Of a stretch of 64,000 nt of DNA, positions 20,350 through 58,028 are shown piece by piece (the first letter of the stretch is position 1; every line of letters starts with the position of its first letter). The position numbers and the translations under genes are program-made. The stretch is from Armatimonadota bacterium (lineage in GTDB: Bacteria; Armatimonadota; Fimbriimonadia; Fimbriimonadales; Fimbriimonadaceae). The notes below the pieces were generated by a model. The model was not told the DNA's origin, searched no databases, and was given only the letters and a program-made list of their open reading frames with translations. Where the stretch lies: contig JAFDWR010000001.1 in NCBI GenBank assembly GCA_018268355.1, forward strand, positions 645,858 to 709,857, in the 5' to 3' direction.

Positions 20350-22155
20350 ATGACTACCCGAAAGAAGGCCCCCAAGGGCCGCCGCGCTGAATCAGTTTCC
20401 TCGTCCACCGGCAGCCGCCGCAATCCCAAAATCGAGATCCTCGTTAACGTCACCAACCGGGAGACTCGCATCGTCATGCTGGAAGATGGCCAGCCGATGG
20501 AGTACCGCGTTGAGCGTGAAGAGCGCGTTGTGGGTTCGATCTTTAAGGGCATCGTCCAAAACGTCCTCCCGGGCATGGACGCCGCCTTTGTCGATATCGG
20601 CCTCGAGCGCAACGCTTTCCTGTACGTTGGCGACATCCTTCCCGAAGAGGGCGGCGACCAAAGCCCCCAAAGCGTGAAGCGATCGGAGCTTCGACGACGC
20701 AAGATCAAGGAGCTCATCCGACCCGGCCAACAGGTCATGGTCCAGGTGACCAAGGGTCCCCGCGGCACCAAGGGTGCCCGTGTCACCACCCGGATCGCCC
20801 TTCCTGGTCGCTATGTCGTCTTGATGCCCGAGAGCAGCAGCGTCGGCGTCAGCCGAAAGATTGAAGACCGCAGCGAGCGCGAACGGCTTCGCAAGCTGGG
20901 CGACCGACTCCAGGTCCCCGGTTTCGGAATCATCATGCGCACCGAGTGCGAAGGACGAACCGAGGCCGAACTCCGCGCCGACATCTCGTTCCTTGAGCAG
21001 CTTTGGCAGGACATCACCAAGGCCTCGAAGCGCCAACGCGCCCCTGCCTGCGTTCACAAGGACCAGACCCTTCTCTTCCGGACCGTCCGCGACATGTTCG
21101 GCGAAAACATCGACACGATGGTGATCGACGATCCCGACGAGTACGAGAAGGTCCATCACGTCGCCAAGGCGGTCGCCCCCGGACTTCGGGACAAGATCAG
21201 CCTCTACGACGGCGAAGTCCCCATCTTTGACCATTACAAGATCGAAAGCGAGCTCGACCGACTCCTCCAGCACCACGTCTGGCTGAAGTCGGGTGCTTAC
21301 CTTGTCATCGACGAGATGGAAGCGCTCACCGCGATCGACATCAACACCGGTCGCCAGGTGGGCTCGACGTCGCTCACCGACACCATTGTCAAGGCGAACA
21401 TGGAGGCGATCGACGAGGTCTGCCGCCAGCTCCGCCTGCGCGACATGGGCGGCATCATCGTTATCGACTTCATCGACATGGAGAGCGAGACTGACCGGAA
21501 AAAGGTGCTTGCCGCTTTCACCGAACGGCTCGCGAGGGACCGGGCGCGTACCCGCGTCGGAAAGATCTCGTCCCTTGGCCTCGTCGAAATCACCCGAAAG
21601 CGAACCGGCGAGTCGGTGACCCAAGAGATCACCGAAATTTGCCCGATGTGCGAAGGCATCGGCCGAATTTCGTCGAAAGAAACGGTTTCGCTCTGGATTG
21701 AACGAGACATGTGGCGAAAGGCGGCCGAACCCGGCGATGCCTTCTTTGTCGAGTGTCACCCGTCGGTGGTCGAGGCCCTGGTTGGGCTCGACGGCGAGAA
21801 CGTCGAAGAACTCGAGCACGTCATGCGACGCGGCGTCTATATCCGCGCCAACTTCGACATGGAGTACGAGGAGTACGACATCCGCACCGGCAAGATCGAC
21901 GACTTCGACAAGGAGTACATGAACTATCGCCGCGCCCAGGTGGTCGAGGTGAACGTTCGCCGCTCCGCCTTTGAGGGCACGAACAAGGTTGTTGGCTGGA
22001 CGGACAATGGCTACTTTGTGGAGCTGCTCGACGGCTCGAACTTCGTCGGCCAGCGCGTGAAGGTCGTGATCCAAGACCTGCGTCGCTCGTTCGCGGTCGG
22101 CGACGTGATCGCCCCCGGCATCAGTAGCCCGAACTACGCTCGCAGTCTCTCGTAA
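20350..22155 (+). CDS. rng: Ribonuclease G/E family endoribonuclease with C-terminal TRAM-like domain
   Basis: This is a 601-aa RNase E/G catalytic protein for rRNA and mRNA processing. It has an N-terminal S1 region (GSIFKGIVQNVLPGMDAAFVDIG), catalytic DNase-I-like segments with TAIDINTGR and GGIIVIDFIDM, and the zinc-link cysteines in EICPMCEG. After the RNase G core comes a basic TRAM-like domain (VVEVNVRRSAFEG to VKVVIQDLRRSFAVGDVI), which E. coli RNase G lacks. The last seven codons (NYARSLS) and the terminator are duplicated 2160 bp downstream, at the far edge of an island. Confidence 0.93.
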   Translation: MTTRKKAPKGRRAESVSSSTGSRRNPKIEILVNVTNRETRIVMLEDGQPMEYRVEREERVVGSIFKGIVQNVLPGMDAAFVDIGLERNAFLYVGDILPEEGGDQSPQSVKRSELRRRKIKELIRPGQQVMVQVTKGPRGTKGARVTTRIALPGRYVVLMPESSSVGVSRKIEDRSERERLRKLGDRLQVPGFGIIMRTECEGRTEAELRADISFLEQLWQDITKASKRQRAPACVHKDQTLLFRTVRDMFGENIDTMVIDDPDEYEKVHHVAKAVAPGLRDKISLYDGEVPIFDHYKIESELDRLLQHHVWLKSGAYLVIDEMEALTAIDINTGRQVGSTSLTDTIVKANMEAIDEVCRQLRLRDMGGIIVIDFIDMESETDRKKVLAAFTERLARDRARTRVGKISSLGLVEITRKRTGESVTQEITEICPMCEGIGRISSKETVSLWIERDMWRKAAEPGDAFFVECHPSVVEALVGLDGENVEELEHVMRRGVYIRANFDMEYEEYDIRTGKIDDFDKEYMNYRRAQVVEVNVRRSAFEGTNKVVGWTDNGYFVELLDGSNFVGQRVKVVIQDLRRSFAVGDVIAPGISSPNYARSLS

Positions 22156-22209
22156 GGCTCCCGCAGAGACAAAAAGAATCGGCCCTGTTCGCTTTGAACA
22201 GGGCCGATT
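22130..22209. repeat. 80-bp direct repeat, left copy (rng 3' end plus terminator)
   Basis: This segment matches 24290-24369 at 75 of 80 positions, with a constant offset of 2160 bp. It spans the last codons of rng, the stop and most of the terminator stem. Three of the five differences fall in rng codons and all three are synonymous (Tyr, Ala, Ser third positions). Confidence 0.95.
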
Positions 22210-22215
22210 CTTTTT
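22171..22215 (+). terminator. Intrinsic terminator of rng
   Basis: A perfect 20-bp stem (22171-22190 with 22196-22215) with a GCTTT loop has T-rich right and A-rich left arms, so it can act on both strands. Confidence 0.92.
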
Positions 22216-22401
22216 GGTTGGTCGACGTCGACCGGGGATAGCTAACTTGTGATGTGAGGTAGACGGATCAACACCGGCGACTGAATCCTTCAACCTCAAG
22301 TCTCATGGTGAACATCCACTACTTCTGGACGGTGGTGAATCGATCCCTGCGACTGAATTCTCAACTCAGATTCACAAACACATCCAAACCGCACTTTGAG
22401 C

Positions 22402-22908
22402 CTAAAGTTTCCGCCCGCTCCTACTGCTATTGAGTTCCTCGAACAGCACATTGGCTTCAACCGCATCTTCTGGATCTTCCTGGTCCCACGTCCTCAACAA
22501 TCGCAACAAAGCTCCTACGTCTCTGCCGGGGGCGACTGGATCAACAGGCGAGTTAGTCTTTGCGTTGCACTTGGCGAAGCCGAAAAATGAGGCTGCAAGA
22601 TCGTATTCGTGCACACGGGCAAAGAGTTTAAAAGCGTCAATCGAATTTGTCTCCTCTGCCAAAGGGCGGTCCGTGTATGCCTCCCAGTCCTTCGGGGCCC
22701 AGTGAGCCAAATTTGCGAGATCGGAATCCAATTCAGTAAATGTCGTGAAGGCTGCTGAAACATTAAGATGTCGCAAGTGGGACGTATACAGTACTGGAGC
22801 ATTATTTTCCAAGTTTGAGACATCTACACTAAGGTAATGCACGCAACTGGGAACTCCGACTTGCTCCGCAATGCCGGTGTAGTCTTCTTCACGCAGGCTT
22901 AGCACCAT
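22402..22908 (-). CDS. Protein of unknown function, second gene of the island pair
   Basis: This is a 168-aa soluble protein with no signal peptide, membrane segment or motif that I recognise. It is acidic in the middle and C-terminal parts (LDSDLANLAHWAPKDWEAY and WDQEDPEDAVEANVLFEEL). Its ATG overlaps the stop of the upstream gene as TAATG, so the two products are probably made in fixed ratio and may interact. Three cysteines are scattered and suggest no metal site. Function unknown. Confidence 0.7.
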   Translation of the reverse strand: MVLSLREEDYTGIAEQVGVPSCVHYLSVDVSNLENNAPVLYTSHLRHLNVSAAFTTFTELDSDLANLAHWAPKDWEAYTDRPLAEETNSIDAFKLFARVHEYDLAASFFGFAKCNAKTNSPVDPVAPGRDVGALLRLLRTWDQEDPEDAVEANVLFEELNSSRSGRKL

Positions 22909-23579
22909 TATCTTGTCTCGAAAGTAACTGTACTGGTCGTGTTGGTAAGGGAAGCAATAGCCTCAGCTTTCCGCCTTGCTCGCTCAGCTTGGGCAATCAG
23001 CTTTTCCAGATCGCTGTCATCCAGAACGAATGACTGGTTGGTATCGTTCCCGATCCCGTCGACAGAGGCGATCACCAGGACGTGCTTTGTCAAAGCTCCC
23101 ATTACATTGTCGCCACTATCAGAGAAAATCCACCGGGTCTCCGTGAAAATTCTAGTGTTAAGTACAGAGCCCGGACTGAGTGAACTCAGGGCTGAAGCCT
23201 TGCTGAGCAGGGTAACAGACGTGTCTGGACCCACCAGACCAGCTAAGCGGGGCAGCTTTTCCTTCCACTCAGATTCATTCCACCAGTCCGGATTCTGTCT
23301 CTCAAGGTCCCGTTGGAGACCCGCAAGGACCTCTTGGATCGGCTCACTCGTTCTGATCCCGATAGATCCAATGGCCAAGAGAAAGTCGGTCATCCACTCG
23401 ACGAGCTCGTCACTCTGACCGCTCCTGATAAGCCTATCCCGAAACTCGGCGACGCTTGGAACGGCATTTAGCGCCAAGATTTCTGACGACAGTTCCCCAA
23501 ATGTTGATCCATCGAGCTCAAGAAAGCGTTGGAACATCGGTAGATGTTCTCGCGGAATGCGCAATCTAAGTTCCGGCAT
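22908..23579 (-). CDS. Protein of unknown function, first gene of the island pair
   Basis: This is a 223-aa soluble protein. The N-terminal half is helical (MPELRLRIPREHLPMF, then VEWMTDFLLAIGSIG). The C-terminal half has a beta-rich region (LNTRIFTETRWIFSDSGDNVMG) ending in a charged helix (DDSDLEKLIAQAERARRKAEAIA). I chose the ATG at 23579 because GGGTGAG lies about 8 nt upstream; an in-frame ATG at 23618 is the alternative. It is coupled to the following gene by TAATG. It has no recognised domain and could be part of a toxin-antitoxin-like or defence module (speculative). Confidence 0.7.
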   Translation of the reverse strand: MPELRLRIPREHLPMFQRFLELDGSTFGELSSEILALNAVPSVAEFRDRLIRSGQSDELVEWMTDFLLAIGSIGIRTSEPIQEVLAGLQRDLERQNPDWWNESEWKEKLPRLAGLVGPDTSVTLLSKASALSSLSPGSVLNTRIFTETRWIFSDSGDNVMGALTKHVLVIASVDGIGNDTNQSFVLDDSDLEKLIAQAERARRKAEAIASLTNTTSTVTFETR

Positions 23580-23852
23580 AGCAAGTCTCACCCTACCACA
23601 ACGGCCATGCGATGGCAAGATTCACTCGAAGAATTGGCATGAAACGCCGCGACCTTACGCCCGAGATCAATCTCCAGCCGACCAAGCAGATTCGCTAGCG
23701 AGCAGTCGGAATGTTACGACTTGACGAATTTGGCGAAACAATGTACTGTTCACAGCAATGATGACCTTGCACCCGCTTCCGCGCGATTGTCGTTCTCGTA
23801 GCCACAGATGATGCTGTTTTGAGTCCGTCGAGAGAACCGCAAATCATCGAAC

Positions 23853-24287
23853 ATGAAACTAGTACTTGACACCGGAATTGCCGGAATGCTGGTCCACAAG
23901 GATGAAGGACGACGTTCCGAGGTTCTCAACTTTCTTGCGAAGCTCCCTCCAAGAACTCCGGTTTTCTTGCCAGAGGTTGTTGACTACGAGCTCCGCCGAT
24001 CACTCTTGAGGATCAATAGCAGAAAAAGCCTAAATCGTCTCGACAGGCTTTCGGTCGAATTAGAGTACGTTCCGATCACATCCCAGCATATGCGCCGCGC
24101 TGCCGAAATTTGGGCAGAGTGTCGCCTCAAGGGTTTCCCGTTTGCTGACGAACAGTCGCTGGATGGAGATTGCATCTTGATTGCCCAAGCGGAGAGTTAC
24201 CTCCCCAATGTCAAAGTGCTGACGACAAACGCAAAGGACATTGGCCGATTCCTTGAAGTAGCGGAAATACCAACGCGATTTGATTAG
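23853..24287 (+). CDS. PIN-domain protein, VapC-like ribonuclease
   Basis: This is a 144-aa PIN-domain protein, usually a Mg2+-dependent ribonuclease and often a VapC toxin. The acidic residues fit the family: Asp in VLDTG near residue 6, Glu in LPEVVDYELRR, Asp in ADEQSLDGDCILIAQA, and the TTNAKDIGRF end motif. It resembles a subgroup common in cyanobacteria and other environmental bacteria. No antitoxin-sized frame is seen in the preceding 270 bp or before the second repeat, so it looks solitary. Its TAG stop sits almost on the right-hand repeat boundary. Confidence 0.85.
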   Translation: MKLVLDTGIAGMLVHKDEGRRSEVLNFLAKLPPRTPVFLPEVVDYELRRSLLRINSRKSLNRLDRLSVELEYVPITSQHMRRAAEIWAECRLKGFPFADEQSLDGDCILIAQAESYLPNVKVLTTNAKDIGRFLEVAEIPTRFD

Positions 24288-24289
24288 GT

Positions 24290-24369
24290 CGAACTATGCA
24301 CGCAGCCTCTCGTAAGGCTCCCGGAGGGACAAAAAGAATCGGCCCTGTTCGCTTTGAACAGGGCCGATT
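24290..24369. repeat. 80-bp direct repeat, right copy (displaced rng 3' end plus terminator)
   Basis: This second copy of 22130-22209 keeps the codons for NYARSLS and a TAA stop although no rng gene precedes it. The terminator stem is conserved; divergence begins just past it. Confidence 0.95.
24331..24369 (-). terminator. Intrinsic terminator after rplE
   Basis: A 14-bp stem (24337-24350 with 24356-24369) is followed, on the minus strand, by CTTTTT encoded at 24331-24336. This is the right-hand copy of the rng terminator and now ends the S10 operon transcript. Confidence 0.85.
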
Positions 24370-24394
24370 TGGTTTGCTTGGTAGAACGGAGTTC

Positions 24395-24985
24395 TTACTT
24401 CTCGCGGAGCGGGAGGCCAAGAGCCTTGAGAAGGGCGTAAGCCTCTTCGTCGGTCTTGGCGCTCGTGCAGATCGTGATGTCCATGCCACGGATCCGGTCG
24501 AACGTGTCGTAGGGGATTTCCGGGAACACGAGCTGCTCCTTCAATCCGAGCGAGTAGTTGCCGCGGCCATCAAAGCTCTTCGGGTTGAGGCCCTGGAAGT
24601 CTCGGATTCGGGGGAGAACGACGGTGGCGAGCTTGTCGAAGAAGTGGTACATGCGGTCGCCGCGGAGGGTGACCTTGCAGCCGATTTCCTGACCTTCTCG
24701 GAGCTTAAAGTTCGAGATCGAGGTCTTTGCCTTGGTGATGACGGGCTTTTGACCAGCGATCAGCGTAAGGTCGCGGACCGAGTTCTCAAGGTGCTTGTCG
24801 CCGTTCTTTTCCTTGGTTCCCGTCCCCATGTTGATGACGATCTTCTCAAGGTGCGGGATCTGCATCGCGGACTTGAAGCTGAACTGCTCCTTCAGCTTGC
24901 CGGCGATTTCCTTGTTGAACTTTTCTTTAAGTCGCGGGGTGGGCAGGGCGCCGACGGCCGCGGTTTCTTCCTTCTTCTTAGCCAT
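24395..24985 (-). CDS. rplE: 50S ribosomal protein uL5
   Basis: This 196-aa L5 binds 5S rRNA. It has the conserved [38 protein letters not shown] and [20 protein letters not shown] segments, plus a short basic N-terminal extension. It is the last gene of this cluster: a terminator follows, and rpsN, rpsH and rplF, which normally come next, are absent. Confidence 0.97.
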
Positions 24986-55770: not shown

Positions 55771-56877
55771 TTAGGAGGTTTTGCCGTTTTTCTCAGCATC
55801 TATGCGAGCTTGCTTCTCTTGGCTACGGGCAACGGCATACCACCCGGCTAGAGCAAGCCCGGCGATAATCAAAGCGTACTGAAAGCCCGGCAGGGCGCGG
55901 TACTTGACCTTCACATGCTCCACGGGCTGAGCGATCCACGTCTTCCCTTCGGGGTCGGGCTCAATAAAGAGGTCTGAGCCTAGACGGTGGAAGGTCTCTT
56001 CAGAATAGGTGTTCAGCACCCACTCCTTCGATACGGCAAAGCCCTCCTTCTGGAGGACCTCAATCGCGCGATCATTCAAGTTCTGGCACTGAGCCAGTGT
56101 GACGTACCAGTCCTCCAACCCCTGTCTGACCTTGATTGGCTTGGGAGTGACGATCATGAGAGAGAGCTCGCGAAGGTAGTCGGGAACGTCGGCAAAATCC
56201 GGCTCGCTGTATGGATAAAACGGTTTCTCTGCCTTGAACTTGATCTCGATCTTCGGTGATCGCATGACCTGCGCCTTGTTTGACGGCCGCTTGAACCGAA
56301 ACGCCGAGAGGTAAAAGCTCTCGTCGACGTAGGGCTTTACCCACTCCTTGACCTCTTCACGGATCGTGAACCCGTTCTTCTTCGCCCAGAGCTGGAGTTC
56401 CTCGGGTGACTTTGCCTTCAGGACGGTGACCTCGTACTCGCCAAAGTCGACCTTGTCGAAGACCGTTGGCCCAGGCGAGGCGCTCGGTCCGGCCCCAGCC
56501 ACGCCGTCGTACTTCATGTACGAGTAGTACTCCTGCTCGGTCATGTCCTCGGCGAAGAGCTTGGCCGCGACAAAGGTGATCGTCTTCTCCTTGTAGATCG
56601 GCTTGGGGATCATCGCGTCCGCGAAGTCCTGATGGACGGACTCCGAGAGCTCGCGGAAGGTAGGCATGCTCGGCGTTGGGACGATAAAGCCAAAGCTGTC
56701 ACTGTTCCCCGCGAACTCGACCGTTCGGACGAACGATTCCATCTTGGTGGCGGGGTCGTAGACGATGAGTGTCCGTTCGGCCCCGATTCTCATCGAGTCA
56801 TCGATTACCGCGCAGGGCTTTGCGATGGCGGTAGCCAAAAAGCTTATTCCAATGAGTCCGATTCTTTGACGGTTCAT
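55771..56877 (-). CDS. DUF2330 domain secreted or membrane protein (paralogue 1)
   Basis: This 368-aa protein has a signal peptide (MNRQRIGLIGISFLATAIAKPCAVID). The exported domain has RTLIVYDPATKMESFVRTVEF, FGFIVPTPSMPTF, FDFGEYEV-like FDKVDFGEYEVTVLKAK and KPFYPYSEP, typical of DUF2330. A C-terminal transmembrane segment (ALIIAGLALAGWYAVA) precedes a short charged tail. Function is unknown in the family. It follows its paralogue by 4 bp. Confidence 0.85.
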   Translation of the reverse strand: MNRQRIGLIGISFLATAIAKPCAVIDDSMRIGAERTLIVYDPATKMESFVRTVEFAGNSDSFGFIVPTPSMPTFRELSESVHQDFADAMIPKPIYKEKTITFVAAKLFAEDMTEQEYYSYMKYDGVAGAGPSASPGPTVFDKVDFGEYEVTVLKAKSPEELQLWAKKNGFTIREEVKEWVKPYVDESFYLSAFRFKRPSNKAQVMRSPKIEIKFKAEKPFYPYSEPDFADVPDYLRELSLMIVTPKPIKVRQGLEDWYVTLAQCQNLNDRAIEVLQKEGFAVSKEWVLNTYSEETFHRLGSDLFIEPDPEGKTWIAQPVEHVKVKYRALPGFQYALIIAGLALAGWYAVARSQEKQARIDAEKNGKTS

Positions 56878-56881
56878 GGCA

Positions 56882-57967
56882 TTAGTCCTCCACGAAGTCC
56901 ATTGAAGGCTTCGGCGCCTTCGGTCGAGCCTTGAGGAACACCATTAGAGCAGCGGCGATGATCCCACCACCTGCAACGAGGAGCCAACCACCCGGGAAGG
57001 CCTTCCACTTGTATTTGAGTTCGTGGTAGGGCTTCTTGTACAACGGCGAGATCCCCGGATCGAGTTCAAAGGTCAGGTCCACGTCGGGTCGGACCGCCGT
57101 CTTGTCCTCAAAGGCGGTAAGGAACCACTTTCCGTCGACGTTCACGCCCTCGCTCGTGAGGGTTGAGATAGCATCGTGCCGCAGGCTTTCCACCTGAGTT
57201 GACTTTGCCGCCCAACGCGTATTGCCCTGCAGCGCGCGCACGGGTTGGGGAGCAACGAAGTAGACCTTGAGGTCCCGCTCGAAGGCCCTTCGGCCACCGG
57301 CGAGGACCTTCGGCTCCCGGTAGGGATAAAACGGCTTGTCCGTTTCGAACTTGATCTCGACCGTCGTGGACCTGTAGTTGGACTCGGCGCTTGAGAAACG
57401 AAAACACGAAAGGTAGTAACCCTTCTCAATGTACGGGCCAAGCCAGTAGGAAACGTTGGAGGGGACGTTGAAGCCATTCTTTTTGGCCCATTCCCCCAGC
57501 GCGACAGGGTCCTTTGCCTTCACGACCGCGACTTCGTACGGTCCGACCTTGGTTCGACCGAACTCCTCGTACCTTGCCCGGTCAGCGGCGGGATAAGCCG
57601 TTACTCCTGCATCTTGAGGCCCAGGGCTCTTGGCGTCGGTCACCCAGAAGCCAAACGAAAACACCCACTGAACGCGGATTTCCTGCACCACAGGAGGCTC
57701 CATCGCAAATTTGAACTTCTCAATCAGGTCCGCTGAGAGGGAGCGAAAAGTTGGCAGCGACGGCGTCGGGACGAGAAACCCGAACGACTGCGCTGGCCCC
57801 GCGAATTCGATCTGCCGGATGAATGATTCGGTCTTGGTGTTCGGGTCATAGACGATGACAGTGCCTTCAGATGTGATCGACATCCTCGGGTCGATTACCG
57901 CGCAGGGCTTCGCGATGGCGGTAGCCAAAAAGCTAAGTCCAATGAGTCCGATCCTTCGACAATCCAT
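56882..57967 (-). CDS. DUF2330 domain secreted or membrane protein (paralogue 2)
   Basis: This 361-aa protein shares architecture with the downstream gene: signal peptide MDCRRIGLIGLSFLATAIAKPCAVID, exported DUF2330 domain (EGTVIVYDPNTKTESFIRQIEF, FGFLVPTPSLPTF, KPFYPYREP) and a C-terminal membrane helix. The 70 bp encoding the signal are about 90% identical to the downstream copy, although the rest has diverged much further. The ATG at 57967 is chosen by alignment to paralogue 1. Confidence 0.85.
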   Translation of the reverse strand: MDCRRIGLIGLSFLATAIAKPCAVIDPRMSITSEGTVIVYDPNTKTESFIRQIEFAGPAQSFGFLVPTPSLPTFRSLSADLIEKFKFAMEPPVVQEIRVQWVFSFGFWVTDAKSPGPQDAGVTAYPAADRARYEEFGRTKVGPYEVAVVKAKDPVALGEWAKKNGFNVPSNVSYWLGPYIEKGYYLSCFRFSSAESNYRSTTVEIKFETDKPFYPYREPKVLAGGRRAFERDLKVYFVAPQPVRALQGNTRWAAKSTQVESLRHDAISTLTSEGVNVDGKWFLTAFEDKTAVRPDVDLTFELDPGISPLYKKPYHELKYKWKAFPGGWLLVAGGGIIAAALMVFLKARPKAPKPSMDFVED

Positions 57968-58028
57968 GCGTCCAACTCTCCGCAACTAATGGACGTAAGA
58001 TCGGCGGCATTCGTCGGTCCAGACGCAA

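Follow-up and report, generated by a model that had tools for sequence, protein, structure and literature searches.

A duplicated rng gene end around a small foreign islet in an Armatimonadota genome, most likely an insertion scar of a known kind

Some integrative elements supply the gene they target with a replacement 3′ end, as e14 and phage 21 do at icd and SCC at rlmH. Cis-mobilizable and pseudo-SCC elements are also flanked by att sites and are devoid of a recombinase. A process of another kind is homology-facilitated illegitimate recombination, which has been proposed to displace old 3′ ends in T6SS effector-immunity arrays and Rhs loci (PMC5361080) and which is also described in PMC2884548.

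The locus considered here lies in a window of 64 kb, a stretch of a 2.7-Mb genome that is 97.7% complete and belongs to an uncultured bacterium. Among named genomes, those closest to it are MAGs with the labels Armatimonadetes and Chthonomonas. Two convergent genes of the ORF list frame the locus: the target gene rng (20350-22155, + strand), encoding a 601-aa protein of the ribonuclease G/E family with the C-terminus NYARSLS, and rplE (24395-24985, - strand), the gene with which the ribosomal protein operon ends here. Between them, two direct 93-bp copies of the rng end enclose an islet. Most likely, this arrangement adds one more case to a known class of insertion scars, here without a visible recombinase. 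The window contains no tRNA or tmRNA target, and no Rfam element was found in it, the sole match being a chance-level miRNA.

Two copies of the rng end

The left copy (22130-22222, + strand) comprises the end codons of rng with the stop codon and the terminator, while the right copy (24290-24382, + strand) is an orphan rng tail with its own terminator. Repeat search and ungapped comparison place the copies 2160 bp apart, with 84 of the 93 positions identical and nine different, and self-BLAST of the window recovers the repeat over 101 nt at 88% identity (E 5e-25). The repeat itself is certainly beyond chance. A first-pass annotation had described two 80-bp segments at this spacing with 75 matches, containing the end codons of rng, the stop and the terminator. 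This description is borne out, as positions 22130-22209 hold five differences and the segments contain eight codons, stop included, and a strong hairpin. The repeat and hairpin have no further occurrence in the genome (two loci in all), which excludes an ordinary terminator repeat unrelated to rng, an outcome for which the same annotation had allowed. Sampling 264 kb of the same genome turned up no further direct repeats within 20 kb apart from tandem pilin genes and a single short repeat between genes. Elsewhere in the window, self-BLAST detects a 0.7-kb direct repeat of about 63% identity at 56200-57968, probably tandem paralogues.

The eight end codons of rng in the repeat are AAC TAC GCT CGC AGT CTC TCG TAA. 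Three of them differ between the left and right copies (TAC/TAT, GCT/GCA and AGT/AGC), each at the third position and each silently. That the in-codon differences are all silent and that the right copy is attached to no gene had been seen at first pass, and both points hold: the right copy begins 2 bp past the stop codon of a PIN gene (24285-24287), in another frame, and is part of no rng gene. Of the remaining six differences, two fall between the stop codon and the hairpin, three are neighbours in the T-tract of the + strand (22210-22212) and one lies past this T-tract.

How much weight can the silent pattern carry? For three random substitutions in the 24 nucleotides of these codons, the chance that all are silent is P 0.013 if transitions are not favoured and 0.04 if they are strongly favoured. 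With three sites, the pattern is only suggestive and is weak evidence when taken alone. Given these values, the earlier argument that a decaying duplication would not keep such a bias is overstated, and what can be drawn from the bias is weaker than the first-pass annotation put it.

Each copy contains a hairpin that folds much better than shuffled sequences (z -8.3 for the left, -6.3 for the right). The left hairpin (22170-22216) is a bidirectional terminator, a perfect 21-bp palindrome with perfectly matched 21-bp arms and T-tracts on both strands. In the right hairpin (24330-24376), the T-tract is kept intact solely on the strand that terminates rplE. A further perfect palindrome of 14 bp (GGTCGACGTCGACC, 22220-22233) lies at the left boundary of the islet.

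Content of the islet

With about 51% GC, the islet (22223-24289) lies below rng and the ribosomal genes, which have about 60%. In its roughly 2.1 kb it carries a PIN gene and a divergent, coupled orfB-orfA pair. The drop in GC and the absence of its genes from nearly all relatives support a foreign origin. None of the islet genes resembles a recombinase, transposase or relaxase, and neither an integrase nor an excisionase is present. The first-pass view of a small insert without integrase is thus correct; its 2.1 kb encode only the PIN protein, a COMMD-like protein and an orphan that matches no family.

The COMMD-like protein, of 223 aa, is the product of orfB (22908-23579, - strand). Its topology, predicted from the single sequence in a poor model, pointed to COMMD, and the profile search then agreed: a profile of five homologues matches a solved bacterial COMMD-like protein, PDB 9q6a, at full length (E 3.4e-22, profile positions 6-218 of 225), and the single sequence matches it at E 2.6e-4. 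The likeness extends over almost all of orfB, whereas the downstream partner gene varies between loci, being orfA here and other uncharacterised ORFs elsewhere. Homologues of orfB occur in 5 of 300 relatives, at loci that include L142, L145, L146 and L180:9319-9993. Three of the five are genomes of the same family, and two of the family homologues count as one because they lie on one nearly identical common contig.

A separate observation concerns L178 (G055 C59) and L179/L235/L236 (G062 C43). The two genomes are placed in separate genera and share 26.8 kb in essentially identical form, and a breakpoint falls within an L-fucose-isomerase-like gene. Such identity across two genera is more readily explained by a mis-binned or chimeric contig than by transfer, and movement of the islet between genera (L178/L179) is not used as support here.

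The partner gene orfA (22402-22908, - strand), coupled to orfB through TAATG, encodes an orphan protein of 168 aa with no relative in the 300 relative genomes, Pfam, NCBIfam, PADLOC, PHROGs, PDB, plasmids or viral contigs. No mobile source of orfA or orfB was found in IMG/VR or among plasmids. The third gene (23853-24287, + strand) encodes a PIN-domain, VapC-like toxin (PF01850, E 7e-11), with homologues in 37 of the 300 relatives and none in its own family. In most of the homologue loci that were read, an antitoxin-like ORF sits upstream; none was found upstream of the gene in the window. Compared with a type II toxin-antitoxin (VapBC) system, the islet therefore has the PIN toxin and no adjacent antitoxin gene, and the toxin gene is an orphan, unlike most of its homologues.

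Origin of the second tail

How did the end of rng come to be present twice, in two diverged forms? The preferred explanation, to which we give a probability of roughly 45%, is that DNA with a diverged rng tail and the islet entered rng through homology-facilitated illegitimate recombination and moved the native tail to its position beside rplE. We infer where the DNA came from, which of the tails is incoming and how the ends were joined, as follows. The donor would be a related strain or species with the islet genes 3′ of its rng. The incoming molecule would pair with the resident rng over a homologous stretch, and the incoming tail and terminator would become the working 3′ end, now the left copy. 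The far end would be joined about 25 bp upstream of the resident rng end, probably via microhomology, a step for which no recombinase would be needed. The resident tail and terminator would be pushed intact to the far side as the right copy, with the hairpin still terminating rplE. Uptake of DNA is plausible because the genome encodes ComEC.

The silent tail differences, the GC drop, the foreign genes, the recombinase-free islet, ComEC and a parallel in a genome of a related genus, G070, all speak for displacement. The small number of silent sites (three), the same anatomy expected from site-specific integration and the tangled state of the G070 locus speak against it. The structure at rng would suit a homologous junction at one end and an illegitimate one with microhomology at the other. 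For replacement of the 3′ end by a diverged allele, the three of three silent codon differences (P 0.013-0.04) are consistent with the proposal made at first pass that one copy came from such an allele: the two tails do look like two alleles, but this origin is plausible rather than proven. The corresponding signature is stronger at G070.

In G070, a COMMD-like operon lies between orphan 3′-end copies of a UvrA C-half ORF, with degenerate tail fragments beyond. A similar string of uvrA-tail fragments is present in G018, a related single-contig genome congeneric with G070. The strings of orphan tails with cargo genes between them span L180:1179-12755 (G070 C9) and L191:3017-14756 (G018). Between the nearest orphan tail of G070 and the attached one, 34 of the 61 codons differ, 26 silently, and 30 of the 43 changes are at third positions. 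Relative to the G018 tail, the G070 orphan has 28 codon differences (3 non-silent) and the attached tail has 38 (7 non-silent). Since the orphan is closer to the G018 tail, it looks native and the attached one looks like the newcomer. Codon comparison thus suggests a parallel with the same signature as the rng tails and with better power, at a locus that is tangled, with many partial copies, and that offers a UvrA C-half ORF only. In G018, short uvrA-tail fragments are also dispersed elsewhere (L192:9665-11919 and L193:8012-8985), and other sequence breaks up some of them; the pattern looks like that of a dispersed repeat derived from the end of the uvrA-like gene.

Alternatively, the locus may be the remnant of a site-specific integrative or cis-mobilizable element at the 3′ end of rng, the left copy being attL with the replacement tail and the right copy attR with the native tail. 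We consider this doubtful. Its anatomy matches that of 3′-end-replacing elements, as repeats of the target-gene end are found at both junctions; the cargo is of the toxin type, and at its gene-proximal edge the repeat has a short identical block, CGAACTA, that could be the overlap region or core of a recombinase. However, the 2.1 kb contain no integrase, excisionase or relaxase, nor a tyrosine or serine recombinase, and the tyrosine recombinases (PF00589) in the 97.7% complete genome are two, both XerC/XerD-like. The resemblance to such elements noted at first pass is for these reasons a structural one only. On the integration route, the integrase, if there was any, would have been lost or would act in trans.

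Is the end of rng used as an integration site in related genomes? The gene is matched in 84 of 85 family genomes, its own genome counted. In the other 84 family genomes, a set without another species of the genus, rng and rplE were both searched for and were adjacent in none. Sequence 3′ of rng was read in 20 other family members (6.7-16 kb where present), and in 18 of the 20 no duplication of the rng tail lies downstream of the gene, which also argues against a site-specific element. Of the other two, contig L222 is too short, and the single match in G083, a candidate for such a duplication, proved to be a tandem Uma2-like gene. As far as the testable relatives show, the 3′ end of rng is not a recurrent integration site. 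The diagnostic tail pattern and hairpin are absent from the viral contigs of IMG/VR as well, and the search suggested at first pass for other elements ending in the same sequence returned none in the genome, in IMG/VR or in the relatives read. Nor did the genome repeat search or the diagnostic patterns in viral contigs reveal an autonomous element with matching att sites.

It is possible, though just as doubtful, that the tail was duplicated locally when the islet was inserted, by copy-choice or template switching at the perfect hairpin, and that the right copy then diverged neutrally, the silent pattern being due to chance. Stalling or switching is plausible at the perfect 21-bp palindrome, the three adjacent changes at 22210-22212 sit in a T-tract that rng no longer needs, and for a feature chosen by eye a P of 0.013-0.04 for three silent changes is not negligible. 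What weighs against local duplication is that none of the three codon changes alters an amino acid, each being at the third position, and that the repeat, for all its overall divergence of about 10%, shows no change in the hairpin core or in the T-tract on the rplE side.

Very improbable is a relic of a second rng, tandem or xenologous, that once lay beside rplE and was lost but for its tail when the islet arrived: it would account for a coding-like silent tail without a gene, but the genome has a single rng match, as nearly all family genomes do, and the two matches in each of G082 and G094 are complementary fragments.

Meaning and comparison with known systems

If the right copy is the displaced native tail, one genome keeps both alleles of a recombination event. 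In that case, foreign genes would have been gained with no recombinase involved, beside a housekeeping-type RNase gene whose protein stayed the same. The arrangement also provides a searchable signature, namely orphan gene tails with mostly silent differences beside small islets, with which integrase-free acquisitions could be counted across genomes. A broader proposal is that islets with COMMD-like cargo spread in the family without a recombinase, through repeated replacement of housekeeping 3′ ends by donor alleles that leaves orphan native tails, with rng and the uvrA-like gene of genus g19 as two instances. At present this seems improbable; the locus would be of greater interest if tail displacement proved to be a recurrent recombinase-free route in the family.

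In e14/phage 21 and SCC, as at rng, foreign DNA lies between direct repeats that are formed by the 3′ end of a gene and differ silently, and the gene product is unchanged; the rng islet differs in having no recombinase, a size of only 2.1 kb and no second use of the site seen. With cis-mobilizable and pseudo-SCC elements it shares flanking repeats without a recombinase, but no parent element with matching att sites is found in the genome, in IMG/VR or in the relatives read. On the preferred explanation, the displaced 3′ ends of T6SS effector-immunity and Rhs loci (PMC5361080) would resemble the rng locus in the anchor provided by a shared gene, in the replaced 3′ end, in the toxin-type cargo and in the old end left as an orphan downstream. 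In contrast to these loci, the target at rng encodes a housekeeping-type RNase and its tail is short, so that the replaced end would be functionally equivalent and not a new toxin domain, and the orphan includes the terminator.
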